A DNA stretch of 64,000 nt, from the NCBI GenBank assembly GCA_013423385.1, contig BLZA01000023.1, forward strand, positions 1,057,782 through 1,121,781. Reading direction: 5' to 3'. The notes below the pieces were generated by a model. That model had not been told where the DNA came from. It searched no databases and saw only the letters and a program-made list of their open reading frames with translations. Source of the stretch: Naganishia liquefaciens (lineage: Eukaryota > Basidiomycota > Tremellomycetes > Filobasidiales > Filobasidiaceae). The first letter of the stretch is position 1. Every line of letters starts with the position of its first letter. Both the position numbers and the translations under genes were made by a program. Of this stretch, positions 5,622-27,219 are shown piece by piece.

Positions 5622-8600
5622 CTAAGCGAGTCCCAAAACCAAGACGACTCGCGCAGGAATGTATACCTATGGATACGTCAGCCTCTATCGCATTTTCGGA
5701 TTGCCACAAGCGGCGCAGCGACTGACCTGCAAAAAGTTCTTCCGGTTGTTCCACGGGAAATCCGTTGTAAAGTATTCCCCGTTCATGTCCACGCGGTCAT
5801 GTCCGCCGAACCGCTTCTCGTCACTGTTCAAGACGATTTTGTACTTGCCCGGTGTCTCGACGCCGACCCGGTAGTCGACAAATGACTCGGTGGGTGAGAC
5901 TGAGGATGCGTGGGTTAGCAGTGATCTCACGGAAAGGCGAGGACATACAGTTGAAGATGAAGAGCAGACCAGCCCGCTCAAAGACGAGCATCTTGTCGGT
6001 CTCGTTCTTCAGCGAGACGTACGCCTGCGCAAGCTCATGAGTACGCTGCTATTCTCCAGGGGCAGATTGCATACCTGAGGCGCCGACAGCCACTTGTACT
6101 TGGATTCCGTATTGTTCATCACCTTGTCAAACTCGTAGAGGTATTTGTACCTGAGCAAGTTGTCATCGATAAGGTTGAATTGACGTCGAGCGTGCATGAA
6201 AGAGCTGCCGTTGCCTTCTCGAGGGAAGTCCATCCATCTATAATAGATCGTGAATAATCGGTACGAGTACTTCAGCGAGACTTACTCTGGATGACCAAAC
6301 TCGTTGCCCTCAAAGTTGAGGTAGCCTTCACCGCCGAGGGTGTGACAGACGAATCTAAAACGAGATCAGCGTCGCCTTTGGACCTCGAGCCATCGCACCT
6401 ACCGGATCATCTTGTGTAGAGCGATTCCTCGATCGATGACGGGCGTCAATGGCGACAAGTCGGACATGTTGGTGTCTATATAGGATGAGCAACAAGCAGC
6501 GAAGGGCAGCAATACCGCACTCACACATCTCGGCATCCATCAGCCAGAAAGCCAATGTCTTGTCACCGACCAGTGCTTGATCGTGACTTTCGGCATAGGC
6601 AATGCTTTTCTCGTTATGCCTTCTGTTGGTCAAGATGTGCGCAATGTTTCCAATATCCCACTGATCGTCGGTCTTTTCCTTGAGCAGCTTGATCCACATG
6701 TCGGGAATGGCCATCGACAGGCGGTAGTCGAATCCGACACCGCCCTCCTGCACGGGGCGGCAGAGCGCGGGCATGCCAGAGACGTCTTCGGCAATGGAGA
6801 TGACGTCGGGGTAGAGCTCGTGCAACATGTCGTTTGCCTGCGGGCGATCAGTATAGGATGAGGGTCGCGCCGCTGAGACGTACCAGCATGAGGTAGTTGA
6901 CGGCTTCGAGATCAACGTCGTCGCCAAAGTACTCGTGATAGCCGCCTGTCGCCGCGTCAGCGCTCGTTCCGCCGCTGTTCGAGCGACTCACCCGAAAATC
7001 CGACACCCATCCCGTGGTGCTTGTACATCATGCTGGTCACGCCGTCGAAGCGGAACCCGTCAAACATGTATTCGTCCATGTAGAACCGCAAGTTGGACAA
7101 GAGGAATCGGAGGACTTCGGGATGGGCGTAGTTGAAGAGCCGGCTGTCCCAGAGGTCGTGTCGTCCTCGACCGCCTTCGTGGAAGTAGCAGTGATCTGTG
7201 CCGTCAAAGTAGTTGAGACTGCAAAGCGTCAGCGAGCGCCCTTCACCAACAGATAGATACGCACCCATCCTCGGCGTTCTTGCTGGCATGCGAATGCACG
7301 ACATCCAGCAAGACTGTCAATCCCAACTCGTGCGCGCGATCAATCAAACTCTTGAGCTCTTCCGGCGTGCCGTATCGCGAGCTGATGGCGAAGAATGATG
7401 TAACCTGGTAACCAAACGAGGCATAATAGGCGTGCTCCATGATGGCCATCATTTGAATGCAGTTGTATCCGAGCTCGGCGATTCGCGGCAGGACATTGTC
7501 CCGGAACTCGACGTAGCTGCCGACCTTGGGTTCCGGGGTGGAGATACCGACTGCCAGGAATCAGTACCAGCGCGACGGGGCCATATGGGCACTTACCATG
7601 CGCCTCGTAGATCTTGAGACCGCCTGTAGAGTCCTTGCCGCCGATGGCTTTTGGTCGGGGGTGCTTGAATGTGTACTTTTCAGAAGGCGGCGGGTTCCAG
7701 AACCTTCCGTCGTATACGGGCGAAACGGATAGGTCTTGGGTGACTCGCGTGATCCAAGGCGGGAGCCGGTCAATGGTGGTGCCGTCGGGTTTGGTAAAGG
7801 AGACCTGGCGAGGATGGCACGGATGAGCGAGGGGAATGGTACCGGCGAGACACATACCTTGACCATCGAGTCGTGCGGGATGGCGCACGATCCGTCCGCG
7901 AGGGGAGGCACGTAACATGACCAGACGCCGTATTGATCCCTTTCCATGACATTGGCAGAGTGGTCCCAGTTGTCTAAGAAGGGTCAGCGCGGTTGCCAAG
8001 GAGAGGGAAAAGAGGAGCGAGGAGATGCGGGAGTTGATAGGAGGTGCTGCGAATTGACGGGTCTCCCTAGCGATAAATGTCAATCGCAAGCGTTGCTATG
8101 GCAACCAAGCTGCTGGCTGTGCTCGCACGTCGAACGCTCGAGGCAGAGATCATCGGGCCCCGTACGTGAATTGACTTTGGACTGTGGAGGTGACACACAG
8201 AGTCCTGAGGCGTATACGGGCCCATGTATCGCGGGACAGAGGGACGGTGCTTCCGCAGCATCGCCAATGCGAGGGCTAGTCATCCTAGAGCTCAAGTTTC
8301 CAGCTCGCAGTTCTCCGTTGCTCAAGGTGTTCGACGAGTGTTCTGGCGGAGCCTGCTTTCTCTCGAGCGCTCAACGGGCAAGGGGGTTCCTTCTCTGCGG
8401 CACCTCCTATCCTCGCTTCGCTCGACGAGAGGGGGAATTCTCGCTCCTTCGGTCGCTCGAGAATATTCTCGGCCGTCCTTCGACGGCCTCGGGGAATCCT
8501 TGCCTGCCGGCGCGGGAATTCTCGCTTCGCTCGACGAGACACGCATTCTCGCTCCCTCCGGTCCCTCGGCCGCTCATCTCGACTCACTAAACTCGCCAAT

Positions 8601-8913
8601 CAACCTCGCCCCCACCGCTCCCGGCGCCCACTCCCTATACACGACCCCTCCCTTTCCATCCACCTTGAACCCCCTCTGCTCCCATCCCCTCGAAAACTTT
8701 TCATATCCTCCCTCGGACTGCTCAATCTGCCGCTTCATGCCCTCATACTGGCTAAACCTGTGCTGAATCGCGCCCTTGAATGGCTCGAGCCAGGGATCAA
8801 GGTCGATGATGCCGGTGCCTGCGAGCGAGGAGTCCATCAGTACGAGGGATCGCCGACTGAGAGGAACGGGACGAACCGTCTGCGGTCTTGTTGGATTTCT
8901 GAACAATAGACAT
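5622..8913 (-). CDS. GLC3: 1,4-alpha-glucan (glycogen) branching enzyme
   Basis: Cytosolic enzyme that cuts alpha-1,4 glucan chains and rejoins them as alpha-1,6 branches in glycogen synthesis. About 12 exons give roughly 690 residues, the usual eukaryotic length. In order: [15 protein letters not shown] at the N-terminus; the CBM48 region with [19 protein letters not shown] and [10 protein letters not shown]; then the family 13 glycosidase barrel with [12 protein letters not shown], the nucleophile motif [13 protein letters not shown], the acid/base glutamate in [27 protein letters not shown] and [17 protein letters not shown]. The C-terminal beta domain carries [16 protein letters not shown] and ends [14 protein letters not shown]. 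Intron 1 has a GTTCGT donor. Intron 2 (7974-8587) is 614 bases and repeat-built, unlike the others (about 40-60 bases); removing it joins GEF to NNWDH exactly as in the family. Confidence 0.95.
8037..8410. repeat. Inverted repeat pair ATAGGAGGTGCYGC inside the GLC3 intron
   Basis: On the plus strand ATAGGAGGTGCTGC begins at 8037 and its inverse GCGGCACCTCCTAT ends at 8410, with one mismatch in 14 bases. The pair bounds 374 bases that hold a GGCAACCAAG motif (8100-8109). The same ATAGGAGGTGCTG and GGCAACCAAG, at nearly the same spacing (67 against 63 bases), lie in the LYS20 intron at 22750 and 22817. Confidence 0.65.
8400..8587 (-). repeat. Palindrome-like module array A
   Basis: On the minus strand the array reads donor GTGAGT, then GAGGGACCGGAGGGAGCGAG, TCTCGTCGAGCGAAGCGAGA, a GCGCCGGCAGGCA block, the hairpin GGCCGTC-GAAG-GACGGCC (8471-8488), GAGCGACCGAAGGAGCGAG, a second TCTCGTCGAGCGAAGCGAG and finally ATAGGAGGTGCCGC. 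Most modules end with CGAGAAT or CGAGGAT. No protein is encoded. Confidence 0.85.
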
Positions 8914-9191: not shown

Positions 9192-12100
9192 ATGACCGTC
9201 GTTTCTTTGTCGCCAAAGGGGGATGCACACCTCTTGACACCCGCAACAGCAGCAGCAGCGATGGACGCCGAGGATAACCCACGGGACGCCGTCACGGGCC
9301 AGCCCCACGTATTCCATACCGTCGAGACGTCGGCCCAATCGCACCCGCAGCCGCCCCTCGAGCCTTCAGACGCCCACGTTCCCCCTGTTCCCCCTCGACC
9401 CGTTCGATCCGAATCTCGAGATGCGCCGCGAGAGCAGGTGTCCGCGCCGCCTTCGGTGGCCCCGAGACCGGCAGTCAGACGCGTTCCGACGGCCGTGATC
9501 ACACGTGCGGGCGAGGCCCCGCCTCCACCGGCGACGCAGAACGACGACATCAACGACAAGAAGACAGTGCCGACAGAATCCGTCTCCCATACCGTGCACG
9601 TACCCAACACGGTATCGCCCTCGGGAACCGCTCAAGGCACCGCCGTTATCCCCGCCACACAAGCCCACGCCGCGCCGGAGCATGCCCTCCCGACGGCTCC
9701 CTCGGTGCATCCCGAGGCGCAGGCGGCGCAGTTGGACAAGGCGACGCGGGAGGATCCGGCGTTGGTGGCGGGAGAGGTGGAAAAGGCCAAGGCCGGGAGG
9801 AGAGAGCTCGAGGGCAAGGAGCCCAAGGGGACGGTGGTGCAGGGTTTGGAGGATGATCGGCTGTGGGCGCTCTTGCGAAAGTTTGACGAGGTGAGCTTGA
9901 CTCGCTGGTCCGCGCGTTGTATGTACTTACTCAACCTCTCGATACCCTTTGTAGCAAGTAAACCACACCCTTATCCTCACCTCCCACAAACTCCCTCCAA
10001 CGGAACCGGATCTCCGACGCTCCGTTCTCCCCCACGTCCCCTTCAACTCGGACATTCTCCGAGCCAACATGGAACGCCTCTACGCCGGCGCAGGCATCGG
10101 CCTCATTCGGAGCATCAACGAAATCATTCGACTTCGCTCCTGGTCACCGCAAGAGCGTCGGAGGACGGCGTATTTCTGCGTCACCTATTTCTTTGCATGG
10201 TGCCTCGGCCTCGCGATCCCGACCGTCATCTTGTTTTTGATCACGCTCATCGTCTTGCCGGAATCCCGATACTTCTTCTTTCCGCCCGTTATGCCGGCCC
10301 TGGGTCAACCGCCGAGCGCGACGGATCCGACAAACCAGGCCGGCGATCAGAGTTTCCTCGGAGGAGTGGATAGTGACGTGCAGCATCGCAGCAAAGCCGA
10401 GCAGATTGAAGAGCAGGCTTGGGAGTTCCGTCAGCTGTACGTATATCTGCTGGTTCCAAAATGCTCTCGTGTGCTCACGTCCCGCTCAGCGCCGAAGCAT
10501 TCGCTGTTCGAATCGCCGTCTCGAAAGGCGCCAAATCCAAAAACCAAGGCAACGCCGCCGTCGGTGAAAAACACTCGGCGCGATCTCTCGAGCCGTCTTC
10601 GGATTCATCTTCCAGTGAGACCGACTCGGACTCGGACGACGACTTTGCCGATGCGCAGGCGGAATTGGATCCGTCCTTGTATGCGCCTGGCGAGCATCCC
10701 GATGAGATTCGGCGGCAGCAGAAGCAGCTGAGGCATGCGCGCGGTGCCGATAGGAGTGACGGGATGAGCGGCACAATGGTGCATCATCGCAAGGGGAGTC
10801 GAGAGGTGGCTAAGCCGATGAATGAGAAGCAGCGGAAAAAAGCCGAGGGTAAAGAAGCCAAGAGGAAGCGGGACGAGATGATTGGGTAAGTTGCGGTCTT
10901 GAGCTGACCAGAACGACGGATGCTCACAACCTGTTCAGCAAATACACAAAAATGATGCAGGACGTCACCGGCGACATTGCCGATCTGTCTGAATGCGTTG
11001 CACAGTATGTCCTTGCCGCACTCTACGCCCCAAATCGTGTCTCATACTCTTCTCAGCGCCTTGTCCCCCCCGCGTCCGTTCCCGCCCAACATTGCACGCT
11101 TCAAACTCGCCGGCGCTATCTTTGCGCCCCTCTTTCTCGCATCCGCCGTCGTGCCCGCATGGATTTGGCACCGAGCCGCGAGCTTTATGCTTGGATTCTT
11201 GTTCTTTGGGCAGCCGCTCATCGACCGCGGGCTCGCGTGGTTTGTCCGCGCTGTTCCCGATTGGAAAGAAAAGCTGGATATGCGAAAGTAGGTATCGCAG
11301 CTGTGCGGTTCACGTCGTGATGCTAATTTGGCGGCTGCAGCTCACTGTTGTCCGGCGTGCCTACAAACGATCAACTTGTGCTTCACTTGCTACGAGTGGG
11401 CGAACGCATGAATCATCCCTTGCCGCGACCGCCCCCGCCCCCCTTGGCCGGAACTCCGAAGGAAGCGGTAAGCCACTTTATGGAAAGAATCCGCGGCGAT
11501 GTCACTGACGTTCCCCACAGATCAAAGATACCGGTCCGGATCCCGACGATGATCTCGTCGACGAAAAAGGTAACCCCATCGGAGTCGACGAATTGAGCGC
11601 CAGGGACAAGGTCATGCACAAGAGCAAGAGCAAGCTCGTGAACAGCTTCAAGTCTGTTTCCAAGCGTGTTGCTGCAATCGGTGCCGATGTGACGGTGGAC
11701 GGCGTCAGGAAAAAGGTGGGTCCCTCGCCGCCCTCATCGGCTAGAGCTGACAAGCCATGTCGCAGGTTGGGACCAAGGTCGATCGTGTCGTCTTTGGTGA
11801 CGTTCTCAAAGACGACGGTGATGCGGAATGTAAGTTCTGTGCTCGAAGCGGGGCAGAACTTGCTCACACAAGGTCCTACAGCGTATCCTTGCAAACTCAA
11901 CGGCAAGCCGGGGCATATCGTCATTCAGCCCCTCAGCGTCTACGGTCCCGCCTCAATTACCTGGGAGCCGCTGGTTGGCCGGCCTCTTTTCGAACGCAAG
12001 ATCGACGACATTGTCGAGATCAAAAAGGGCGGTGTCTCGATGCCACGGGCCGTTCTTGGTTGGGCGTCCGGCGCGGACATCGAGAGTCAGACCTTGATCA

Positions 12101-22141: not shown

Positions 22142-24270
22142 ATGTGTCCCCCCGCCGACGACGCCAACGCCGCACCGCCCCGAAAGGAGGACTGCGTCCC
22201 GATCGAGACCAATGCGCCGTCCATTCCGACCGTCAACGGACAGCAGAATGGCGAGTCGCATTTGCCCGCCGGGGCGCAGCCGCAGCATCATTCGAATGGG
22301 ACGCATCAGAACAAGAAGAAGAATCCGTATGGGCCGAGGTATTCGGATTTCCTGAGTAATACGAGCAATTGGAGTATTATTGAGAGTACGCTCAGAGGTG
22401 AGTACCCGAGGAGCGGCGAGCGACCGAAGGGAGCGAGATTACTTGTCTCGTCGAGCGAAGCGAGAACCCCTCCGAGCGACCGAAGGGAGCGAGAATACCA
22501 GCGCCGCAGGCACGAGGCCGTCGTAGGAGGGCCGAGAATACCCTCGAGCGACCGAAGGGAGCGAGAATCCCCTCTCGTCGAGCGCAGCGAGAGTACCTTC
22601 CTCGACGAGCGCAGCGAGAATCCCCTCTCGTCGAGCGCAGCGAGAGTACCTTCCTCGACGAGCGCAGCGAGAATACCTTCCTCGACGAGCGCAGCGAGAG
22701 CACCTTTCTCGGCGAGCGCAGCGAGAACACTTTTTCTCGTCGCCCGCGAATAGGAGGTGCTGTCGGCAAAGATGTACGAGCAAGCCCAAGAGCCAGCCCG
22801 CCAGCATAGGCGGCGTGGCAACCAAGGTCTCTTCATTTTTGTCCTTCCCATCCTCGCAACCCTCTACCCCTCGATCCGATCACGCCCACTCTGAGCGATC
22901 CCTCATCTTCCACCATTCCGCCCGTGTCGAGGACCCCACTGACGCCCATCTCCACCAGAGGGAGAGCAATTCGCCAACGCCTTTTTCACGCTCGAGACCA
23001 AGATCAAGATCGCCAAGGCGTGAGTCGTCCGCTTGGCCATTGCCCCCCCCGATGCTAATGTCCCCTCGCAGCCTCGACGAATTCGGTGTCGAATACATCG
23101 AGCTGACCTCGCCCGCCGCCTCGCCGGAATCGTTCAACGACTGCAAGACCATTTGCTCGCTCGGCCTCAAGCGATCCAAGATCTTGACCCATATCCGATG
23201 CCACATGGACGACGCCCGACTCGCCGTCGAGACGGGTGTCGACGGTGTCGATGTCGTTATCGGTACGAGTTCGTTCCTGCGTGAGCACTCGCACGGCAAG
23301 GACATGACCTGGATCACCAAGCAGTGAGTCGGACCGAGCCTTTTCAGCCCAACCGCGCTCATCCCGCCGTTGCAGGGCCATCGAGGTCATCGAGTACGTC
23401 AAGTCCAAGGGCATCGAGATCCGATTCTCCTCGGAGGACTCGTTCCGATCCGAGCTCGTCGACTTGCTCTCCATCTACCGAACCGTCGACAAGGTCGGCC
23501 TCAACCGAGTCGGTGTCGCCGATACCGTCGGATGCGCCGACCCGCGACAGGTGTACGACCTCGTGCGAACGCTGCGTGGTGTCGTCTCGTGCGACATTGA
23601 ATGCCACTTCCACAACGACACGGGTTGTGCCATCGCCAACGCTTATGCGGCGCTCGAGGCCGGTGCCACGCACATTGATACCTCGGTGCTCGGTATCGGA
23701 GAGCGAAACGGTATCACCCCTCTCGGTGGTCTGATCGCGCGAATGATGGTCGCCGACCCGGACTATGTCAAGTCCAAGTACAACTTGCCCATGCTCCGAG
23801 AGATTGAAAACCTCGTCGCCGACGCCGTCGAGATTTCCGTGCCGTTTAACAACTACATTACCGGATTCTGCGCATTCACCCACAAGGCCGGTATTCACGC
23901 CAAGGCGATCCTCGCCAACCCGGCCACGTACGAGATCCTCAACCCGACAGATTTCGGCATGTCCCGATACGTCTCGATCGGTCATCGACTGACGGGATGG
24001 AACGCTGTCAAGTCGCGTGCCGAGCAGCTCAACCTCGACATGACCGACGAACAGGTCAAGGATGCTACTGCCAAGATCAAGGAGCTCGCAGACGTCAAGA
24101 CCCAGAGCATGGAAGACGTCGATGCCATCCTGCGTATCTACCACACCGCCATCAACGCCGGCGAGCTCGAGGTCGGTCAGCAGAAGAAGCTGCAGACCTT
24201 GCTCGACAAGCACATGCCCACATCAAGGGAACAGTCTCCGGCTCCGGGAAAGCGCGAGGCCCAGGCCTAG
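22142..24270 (+). CDS. LYS20: Homocitrate synthase
   Basis: Condenses 2-oxoglutarate and acetyl-CoA to homocitrate, the first and lysine-feedback-controlled step of the fungal alpha-aminoadipate lysine pathway. Residues 1-70 are a variable Pro/Gln-rich leader. The TIM barrel starts at [11 protein letters not shown] and, across the first intron, [19 protein letters not shown]. It continues with [53 protein letters not shown], the metal-binding [18 protein letters not shown] and [20 protein letters not shown]. The C-terminal region has [14 protein letters not shown] and [14 protein letters not shown]. Four exons. The first intron (22398-22958) is 561 bases and repeat-built, the second and third about 50. 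The family is certain; LYS20 and LYS21 are not distinguishable here. Confidence 0.97.
22398..22762 (+). repeat. Palindrome-like module array B with six-fold tandem expansion
   Basis: Order: donor GTGAGT, GAGCGACCGAAGGGAGCGAG, TCTCGTCGAGCGAAGCGAGA, a second GAGCGACC module, GCGCCGCAGGCACGAGGCCG, GAGCGACCGAAGGGAGCGAG again, then six copies of a unit of about 27 bases centred on GAGCGCAGCGAGA (about 22570-22735), and last ATAGGAGGTGCTG at 22750-22762. The GLC3 copy has one unit where this has six. Confidence 0.88.
22398..22958 (+). other. Oversized repeat-built intron of LYS20 (candidate introner-like element, copy B)
   Basis: The intron runs from GTGAGT at 22398 to CCACCAG at 22958, phase 1, rejoining G|AG of the conserved R-E-G-E-Q-F. 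The first 365 bases are a GC-rich module array homologous, module by module, to the GLC3 intron. The remaining 196 bases are ordinary C+T-rich intron sequence. Without splicing the frame leaves homology with homocitrate synthase and stops at 22751-22753. Confidence 0.78.
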
Positions 24271-25977: not shown

Positions 25978-27219
25978 ATGGGCGGACCCGGGCTATACCC
26001 ACCTCCGCCGCATATCAAGGGAATCCCCACCAAGGCCGAGCTGGATGCATTACCGCGGCTAAACACATGGGAGGAGCTCAAGGATACGATAGGTGAAGAG
26101 AATCCCCCCTTTCCCCCCTCCTTTCCCCTTTCTTCTTTCCCCATCATCTCACCCGCTGGCTCCTTCACTCGTGCTCATCCGTAACGGTCCGCAGCACGTT
26201 GGTGAGTAGACTAGGCAGACGTCGTTTGACGATGCTCAGCTGTCGTCGCGTGGACTTGTCGCGTTTTTAGCGAGCTGGGAGAGCTCGGCCGGGGACCCGA
26301 GTTGCAGGCTCGTTATGACAAGTGGATGACGACGATCAAGGAAGAGTACGGAACGACTGGTGAGCGACGCTTCGGTGGTCTCTGCTTGAGATCGTTCTGA
26401 TAGAAGGGGGTGGGGGGGCATTTGATCAGAGAAATACCTCATGGAAGCACGTCTGCCCTGGGAGTCTGGTCGGACTGACGGCCATGTCGATCAGCAGCCT
26501 GCAGAGTCAAACGGGACAATCACCGCCCATGACCTCGACCTCGACGCCGATGGGCAGTACCTCGAATTCAACATTGGACAACAGCTGGATCCCGAGCTCT
26601 ATGCAGTCTTACCCAACGACTGGCCGTATAATACCCCTTACGATGTCGAGCACATCGTCGTATGGAGCAAGGTGAGAATGAGCTACCCCGAGATTCTCGG
26701 TGCCAGAATCGCCCCTCCCCCCCCTCCCCGCGTGCGCGTGCGACTGATCCGCCATGTGTTAGCTCGCCATCTTCCACCCCTCCCTCGTCCAGTCCGACAC
26801 CGCGAAATGGGCTCGAATCCAGCAAGACGGATTCGCGGGATTCACGGGCGACCCGGCGATGCAGGAGCCGCCGGTTGAAACACCGCCGGGCGGGACATTG
26901 TTCAGTAGTTTGAGAGAGGTGGGGCCGTGGGGATGGTGTACGGAGGGAGGCAAGGAGGTGGGCAAGATGGTTGTGACGTTGTGGCCTGTGGACGAGTATG
27001 AGTGTGTCTGGGTGAGTTCCCGGCGAGGCCGGGGTGTTTTGCTTGAAATCTGACTTGCACGCGCGTTCGGCAACGGGTCATCTCAGTTTGTGAACCCTCC
27101 GGTACGTCTGTGCATCTCCTCCCTCGGTCATGGGCACTGGCTGACTCGTGGATGCGCAGCGGCTTCAATCTGTGCGCGGGCTGAGCCACTTTCACGTCTT
27201 TGCGCGTCGGCGAGGGTGA
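25978..27219 (+). CDS. DUF3605 family protein
   Basis: Uncharacterised fungal family, some members of which are called N-acetylglucosamine-induced protein 1. It starts MGGPGLYPPPPHIKGIPTK, with LPRLNTWEELKDTIG. After introns it continues GRGPELQARYDKWM, KYLMEARLPWE, NIGQQLDPELYAVLPNDWPY and the family hallmark DVEHIVVWSK. The end reads WVNPP-like FVNPPRLQSVRGLSHFHVFA, closing at the TGA 27217-27219. About six introns. No signal peptide or membrane segment. Function is unknown; the fold's hallmark blocks are all present. Confidence 0.83.

Follow-up and report, generated by a model that had tools for sequence, protein, structure and literature searches.

The window, i.e. the whole stretch of 64,000 nucleotides that was analysed, lies on a scaffold of 1,284,819 bases in the 19.4-Mb genome of one strain, Naganishia liquefaciens N6. 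This deep-sea yeast was isolated at 6,500 m in the Japan Trench. Its annotation, for which RNA-seq was used, counts 38,748 introns and 6,883 genes, and its assembly was built from Illumina data only, apart from some Sanger gap filling (PMC7679087). Two genes in the window, GLC3 for 1,4-alpha-glucan branching enzyme and LYS20 for homocitrate synthase, carry oversized introns with the following features:

7974..8587, minus strand: GLC3 intron 2, 614 nt, phase 1
8400..8587, minus strand: array of the GLC3 intron, anchored at its donor and made up of modules F B C D A B E
7974..8399, minus strand: remaining 3' part of the GLC3 intron, in which no fresh modules are recognisable
8588..8780, minus strand: stretch rich in G and poor in C that precedes the GLC3 donor (skew tract 8521-8780)
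22398..22958, plus strand: LYS20 intron 1, 561 nt, phase 1
22398..22760, plus strand: module array of the LYS20 intron, likewise anchored at its donor, with a 27-nt tandem repeat inside it (22560-22727)
22761..22958, plus strand: remaining 3' part of the LYS20 intron, which has a CTGAC resembling a branch point and ends in the acceptor CCACCAG

Both introns start with GTGAGT; GLC3 intron 2 ends with CTGAC...TTAG and LYS20 intron 1 with CTGAC...CCAG. The spliced LYS20 model agreed with the annotated protein NliqN6_4307 (100% identity over 487 aa), and the GLC3 model with NliqN6_4302 (100% over residues 14-140, the part scored, with the junction within that span). Both oversized introns are therefore spliced in the annotation as first drawn, and an earlier note on this DNA was right about their lengths, start and phase. 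The note had also described other introns as roughly a tenth as long. This fits the remaining two LYS20 introns (52 nt each) and the median of 59 nt for ordinary intron candidates, but the latter were found by a motif limited to about 120 nt.

The 3' part of the GLC3 intron had no other copy among the best 40 of 67 candidates, which were scored in a genome search with the whole intron. Its minus strand (7974-8399) folds somewhat better than shuffled sequences (z -2.10), and the non-array 3' part (window 8037-8410) is flanked by inverted copies of ATAGGAGGTGC. No Rfam family reached its gathering score within the window.

A dispersed module family at 5' splice sites

The modules shared by the two introns are far more frequent in the genome than their reversed controls. 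We counted 284 occurrences of GAGCGNAGCGAGA (control 10), 139 of GCGCCGCAGGCAAGGATTCC with up to 3 mismatches (control 2), and 39 of a further short module pattern (control 3). Only ATAGGAGGTGC, also listed as shared in the earlier note, was so weakly enriched (21 occurrences, control 12) that we rejected it as a true module. Genome searches returned at least 119 matching pieces for the GLC3 intron and at least 102 for the LYS20 array, and a hand-compiled list holds about 70 loci with related modules. The DNA analysed further comprised 39 blocks, corresponding to 43 arrays after merging of one split array, plus three small loci. A source outside the yeast was rejected both for phages, with no viral contig containing one exact module pattern, and for prokaryotes, where another 18-base pattern gave one match in each of 36 contigs, which we judged to be near chance.

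The host genes are unrelated, as the earlier note had proposed from its two examples. Pfam families were identified on the strand of the array at 22 of 38 submitted loci with E up to 0.001 (17/20, 2/10 and 3/8 in the batches, an extra PP2A match in the 8-locus batch being left out of the count). Four of the counted matches (Arm, PHP, Ribosomal_S8, GFA) fell just under the curated cut-off. In five genes (tetrahydrofolate dehydrogenase, subtilase, Methyltransf_28, cytidylyltransferase and Pex13), the match was solely downstream of the array. Further hosts encode a homeodomain protein, mevalonate decarboxylase, NDUFA12, Utp11, PTPLA, BRAP2, a mitochondrial carrier and RPN1. For 14 array introns of 561-1258 nt, both ends could be set by eye from protein conservation, as between VQIW and FQNKRQ of the homeodomain. 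Taking the longest open frame upstream as a guide, we assigned phase 0 to 23 of 38 arrays, phase 2 to 8 and phase 1 to 7, so that the phase 1 of GLC3 and LYS20 is not characteristic of the arrays. The median distance of the array from the first in-frame ATG in the open frame of the exon was 246 nt (37/38 loci), a measure that is blind through upstream introns; arrays may thus lie early in genes.

Several loci deserve mention in their own right. Among the 74 NDUFA12 proteins returned, relatives of N. liquefaciens were present, but none bore the name of this species, suggesting that the annotation missed or altered the gene (C1:281k), whose array intron measures 1081 nt. Two successive array introns occur in one gene at C14:10447-11932, for which the armadillo-repeat match is marginal. 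Divergent pairs of arrays or modules about 1 kb apart, at C2:55787(-)/56610(+), C10:626398(-)/627519(+) and C2:31768-32307(-)/33234(+), look like neighbouring divergently transcribed genes.

In 42 of the 43 arrays, a 5' splice donor on the sense strand precedes the array start, in agreement with the placement given in the earlier note and at odds with copies scattered outside introns without donor bias. The distance from the donor to the first strict module was 7-72 nt (42 arrays, 11 donors assigned by eye), and the donors comprised 31 GTGAGT, 5 GTGAGC, 2 GTGCGT and 4 others. GTGAGT was present within 90 nt 5' of the first module in 30 of 43 arrays, compared to 3.2% of random positions. The corresponding controls gave 0 on the sense strand beyond the 3' end, 0 on the antisense strand at the 5' side, and 2 on the antisense strand beyond the 3' end. 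Genome-wide, a module followed GTGAGT within 30 nt in 25 cases in sense and in none in antisense orientation. Module matches within array introns were 505 sense and 11 antisense, and each of 40 module clusters had essentially a single orientation (one stray match). The exception, an antisense array at C1:356861, has its 5' end adjoining an acceptor, by our reading, and its peptide is without Pfam match. Since a hairpin array in antisense should do an intron about as little harm as one in sense, the near-strict orientation points to a donor-aware process. Beyond the arrays themselves, GAGCGAG was hardly in excess near donors (87 sense, 52 antisense), and hence there is no visible continuum of nascent arrays. 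On these counts we rejected the idea that seeds are born at donors everywhere.

The arrays consist of head-to-tail units of about 25-27 nt, and copy number varies between loci, as is typical of minisatellites. The unit types A, B, C and D/F follow a loose grammar, (A or B)-C-D, with C followed most often by D or F; module order and length differ between copies, and there are no fixed ends. D and F share a 7-bp hairpin, three pairs of which show double changes. Altogether 95.5% of cells were paired, compared to 81.4% after shuffling, and there were 29 double-change cells, compared to 10.1; for either value, none of 500 shuffles was as high. Pairing fell to at most 48% when the alignment was slid by up to three columns. 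The number of pairs with double changes was no higher than after shuffling.

In 38 of 39 loci (37 of 39 under a looser cut), the units diverge more from the consensus the farther they lie from the donor, the error fraction being 0.073 in the first and 0.228 in the last third. The first 150 nt of the 14 introns with defined ends were alike (mean score 89.7, shuffled 17.5), whereas the last 150 nt were near the shuffled level (17.0, shuffled 15.5), with one pair reaching 45. The 3' parts resemble the units faintly, the sense strand being better in 66 and the antisense strand in 30 of 109 overlapping windows, most strongly in NDUFA12 and the enoyl-CoA hydratase gene. This faint sense-strand resemblance is as expected of a decayed array. 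Judged by eye, two more loci appear to be decayed over their whole length, and an intron of 68 nt has just one core. A DNA search with a decayed array gave no match but itself among the matches listed.

Arrays were enriched near scaffold ends. Of about 70 loci, 39 were located within 100 kb of an end, compared to 17.7 expected and a maximum of 31 in 2000 simulations. The clustering is compatible with ectopic recombination, but it could also stem from other regional properties.

The G-rich zone before the donor

The end of the exon that precedes an array is very G-rich. In the 100 nt before the donor, the GC skew exceeded 0.4 in 36 of 41 arrays, but in only 3 of 47 ordinary intron candidates. 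Successive 50-nt bins upstream of the donor had skews of +0.65, +0.56, +0.23 and 0.00, compared to at most 0.09 for ordinary candidates. The zone spans about 120 nt. The array itself is only slightly skewed (median 0.09). With +0.65 before the donor, the non-template strand is G-rich at the initiation side, as would be expected of an R-loop or switch-region-like locus.

Of the fourfold sites within 80 nt of the donor, 70-73% were G, 11-13% C and 2-4% T, compared to 41% C and 25% G at 200-240 nt before it (loci whose open frame covers at least 150 nt). So little T speaks against simple cytosine deamination. The bias tracks the donor and not the start codon, since the first ATG of the open frame may be anywhere between 21 and 690 nt away. 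Short intron candidates inside the zone were also G-rich (4, mean 0.40, as opposed to -0.04 for 5 farther away), although they are motif-based and some are uncertain. The upstream skew did not correlate with array length (rho 0.06). Since some ordinary intron candidates (3/47) have G-rich exon ends as well, the bias may precede the array.

In the GLC3 protein, changes specific to N. liquefaciens, at sites where N. vaughanmartiniae and N. cerealis share a different state, affected 11 of 39 sites in the G-rich zone and 44 of 592 elsewhere (Fisher p 0.0002), and the amino-acid changes in the stretch 8588..8780 run toward G-rich codons. The NDUFA12 protein showed no acceleration in its zone (3/39 sites, compared to 10/89).

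Skewed sequence is also found elsewhere in the window, with several flips from plus to minus. Near 9893 (window 9721-10090), an ordinary short intron sits between G-rich (+0.47) and C-rich (-0.53) tracts. On the plus strand at 27012-27159, a longer-than-usual intron candidate begins with GTGAGTTCCCGGCGAGGCCGGGG; its exon-end skew is 0.67, and no array modules were found in it.

Age of the introns and origin of the arrays

Two homologous LYS20 proteins, P0114 and P0116, have a 16-aa insert exactly at the position of the array intron (2 of 120 among the matches listed). With codons inferred from the protein, the insert reads as a retained 48-nt phase-1 intron of the form GTGAG...AG. In NDUFA12, inserts at the array-intron position were present in 2 of 74 proteins, with 26 residues in N. 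adeliensis and about 21 in Phenoliferia. The latter insert starts with VS and contains LTLHTNQ near its end, as would be expected from translation of a retained GTGAGT...CTGAC...CAG intron. The former lacks a donor-like start and may thus be the 3' part alone of a longer intron. Many further inserts occur elsewhere in LYS20 and NDUFA12 proteins, and placement by chance is possible; the apparent coincidence in both genes is nevertheless persuasive. Because of the identical positions, the LYS20 and NDUFA12 introns look older than the arrays, at the level of proteins and for these two genes. GLC3, with no retained intron among 119 homologues listed, is uninformative in this respect. No target-site duplication was apparent in 13 introns (3.38, compared to 3.47 in mismatched pairs).

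On balance, we lean towards the view that the arrays are a dispersed, donor-anchored, polar minisatellite family that colonises pre-existing introns, presumably spreading by repair copying and making no new introns. The putative splicing out of the arrays and the presumed older intron in two genes draw their support from protein models. Repair directed by homology or microhomology would copy an array into a further intron at the transcribed, G-rich, R-loop-prone donor region. The resemblance between the donor GTGAG and the repeat core GCGAG, combined with damage linked to transcription in such G-rich DNA, would fix orientation. RNA-templated copying would also account for the near-strict orientation. 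The array would then grow, renewed at its donor end, while distal units mutate; intron creation would play no part.

In its strongest form, which we put forward tentatively and do not expect to hold in full, this model makes the 5' splice site the growing point of a mobile repeat. An R-loop, formed at the donor when a G-rich exon end is transcribed, would be repaired from arrays of other genes or their RNA, fresh units would be laid down behind the donor, and G would be driven into the preceding 120 nt, including coding DNA.

An unlikely alternative is that the arrays are regulatory and under selection, with hairpins and the G-rich exon end being kept because they help to splice oversized introns or enhance early-intron expression. 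Donor anchoring and strand agree with such a role, as would the possible placement of arrays early in genes and the D/F pairing kept through double changes, though D and F may be merely two types. However, neither of the two whole arrays examined surpassed its shuffled versions in folding (z -0.57 and +0.65), leading us to reject whole-array RNA structure as the driver. Units decay away from the donor, and the G-rich zone takes in short intron candidates and goes with the amino-acid changes of GLC3, more like the result of a mutational drive.

We are more doubtful still of introner-like elements, the proposal of the earlier note. The arrays would be, or would have begun as, mobile introns that bring their own donor, arrive by reverse splicing or transposition, and expand later. 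The shared 5' end from GTGAGT, the sense strand and the unrelated hosts are all compatible with this origin. Fungal introners are described (PMC9860276) as favouring genes and as having neither target-site duplications nor inverted repeats, and introners as biased to aquatic organisms, which is circumstantial. Yet homologues of LYS20 and NDUFA12 apparently keep ordinary introns at identical positions, 3' ends are not homologous, and the copies vary without a fixed unit, so that together with the missing target-site duplication the claim of intron creation is not supported.

A non-autonomous, MITE-like DNA transposon with a preference for introns would be dispersed and carry hairpins, and the inverted ATAGGAGGTGC at both ends of the GLC3 3' part is reminiscent of one. 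We consider it very improbable, given the near-strict orientation, the lack of fixed ends and of a duplicated target in 13 introns, and the single copy of the GLC3 3' part among the matches listed. An assembly or annotation artefact is hardly credible; copy numbers may be wrong in a near-exclusive Illumina assembly, but arrays differ by locus and sit in conserved genes, and spliced models match annotated proteins and a homologue.

Known systems and intron growth

Polar minisatellites are tandem units with variation graded along the array. The N. liquefaciens arrays, with tandem units of about 25 nt and graded variation, are alike in this respect, but their pole is nearly always the 5' donor, and they occur in dozens of genes. 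Immunoglobulin switch regions are intronic tandem repeats just past the donor in transcribed G-rich DNA. Here the resemblance is in layout only.

Introners and Introner-Like Elements of Micromonas and Dothideomycetes (PMC9860276, PMC4457414) are likewise dispersed, similar introns of unrelated genes, in sense and with the donor at their 5' end. In N. liquefaciens, by contrast, only the 5' part is shared, the arrays are variable, and the intron is apparently older in two testable genes. The term basidiomyc- is absent from the main text of PMC9860276. Intron gain by repeat expansion in Cryptococcus is similar in that expansion of DNA repeats alters tremellomycete gene structure, but there whole introns were duplicated within one gene (PMC2395259), whereas in N. 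liquefaciens the expansion concerns units of about 25 nt within one intron, and these units recur in many genes. We found no description of donor-anchored intron arrays among the papers listed in the literature searches.

The reasons why a few introns become long are poorly understood. In the compact genome of this yeast, a single repeat family appears to have lengthened dozens of introns, working from the donor end. The findings also carry a warning, as intron sequence common to unrelated genes is no proof that introns were gained. With this system, the growth of introns could be told apart from their gain. Its arrays form a graded series, from fresh ones to decayed ones, and intron growth is tied in it to a sharp G bias of the adjoining coding DNA. 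If the 5' splice site is indeed the growing point, the system would amount to a repeat engine, anchored at splice sites and similar to a switch region, by which old introns are enlarged and proteins reshaped.
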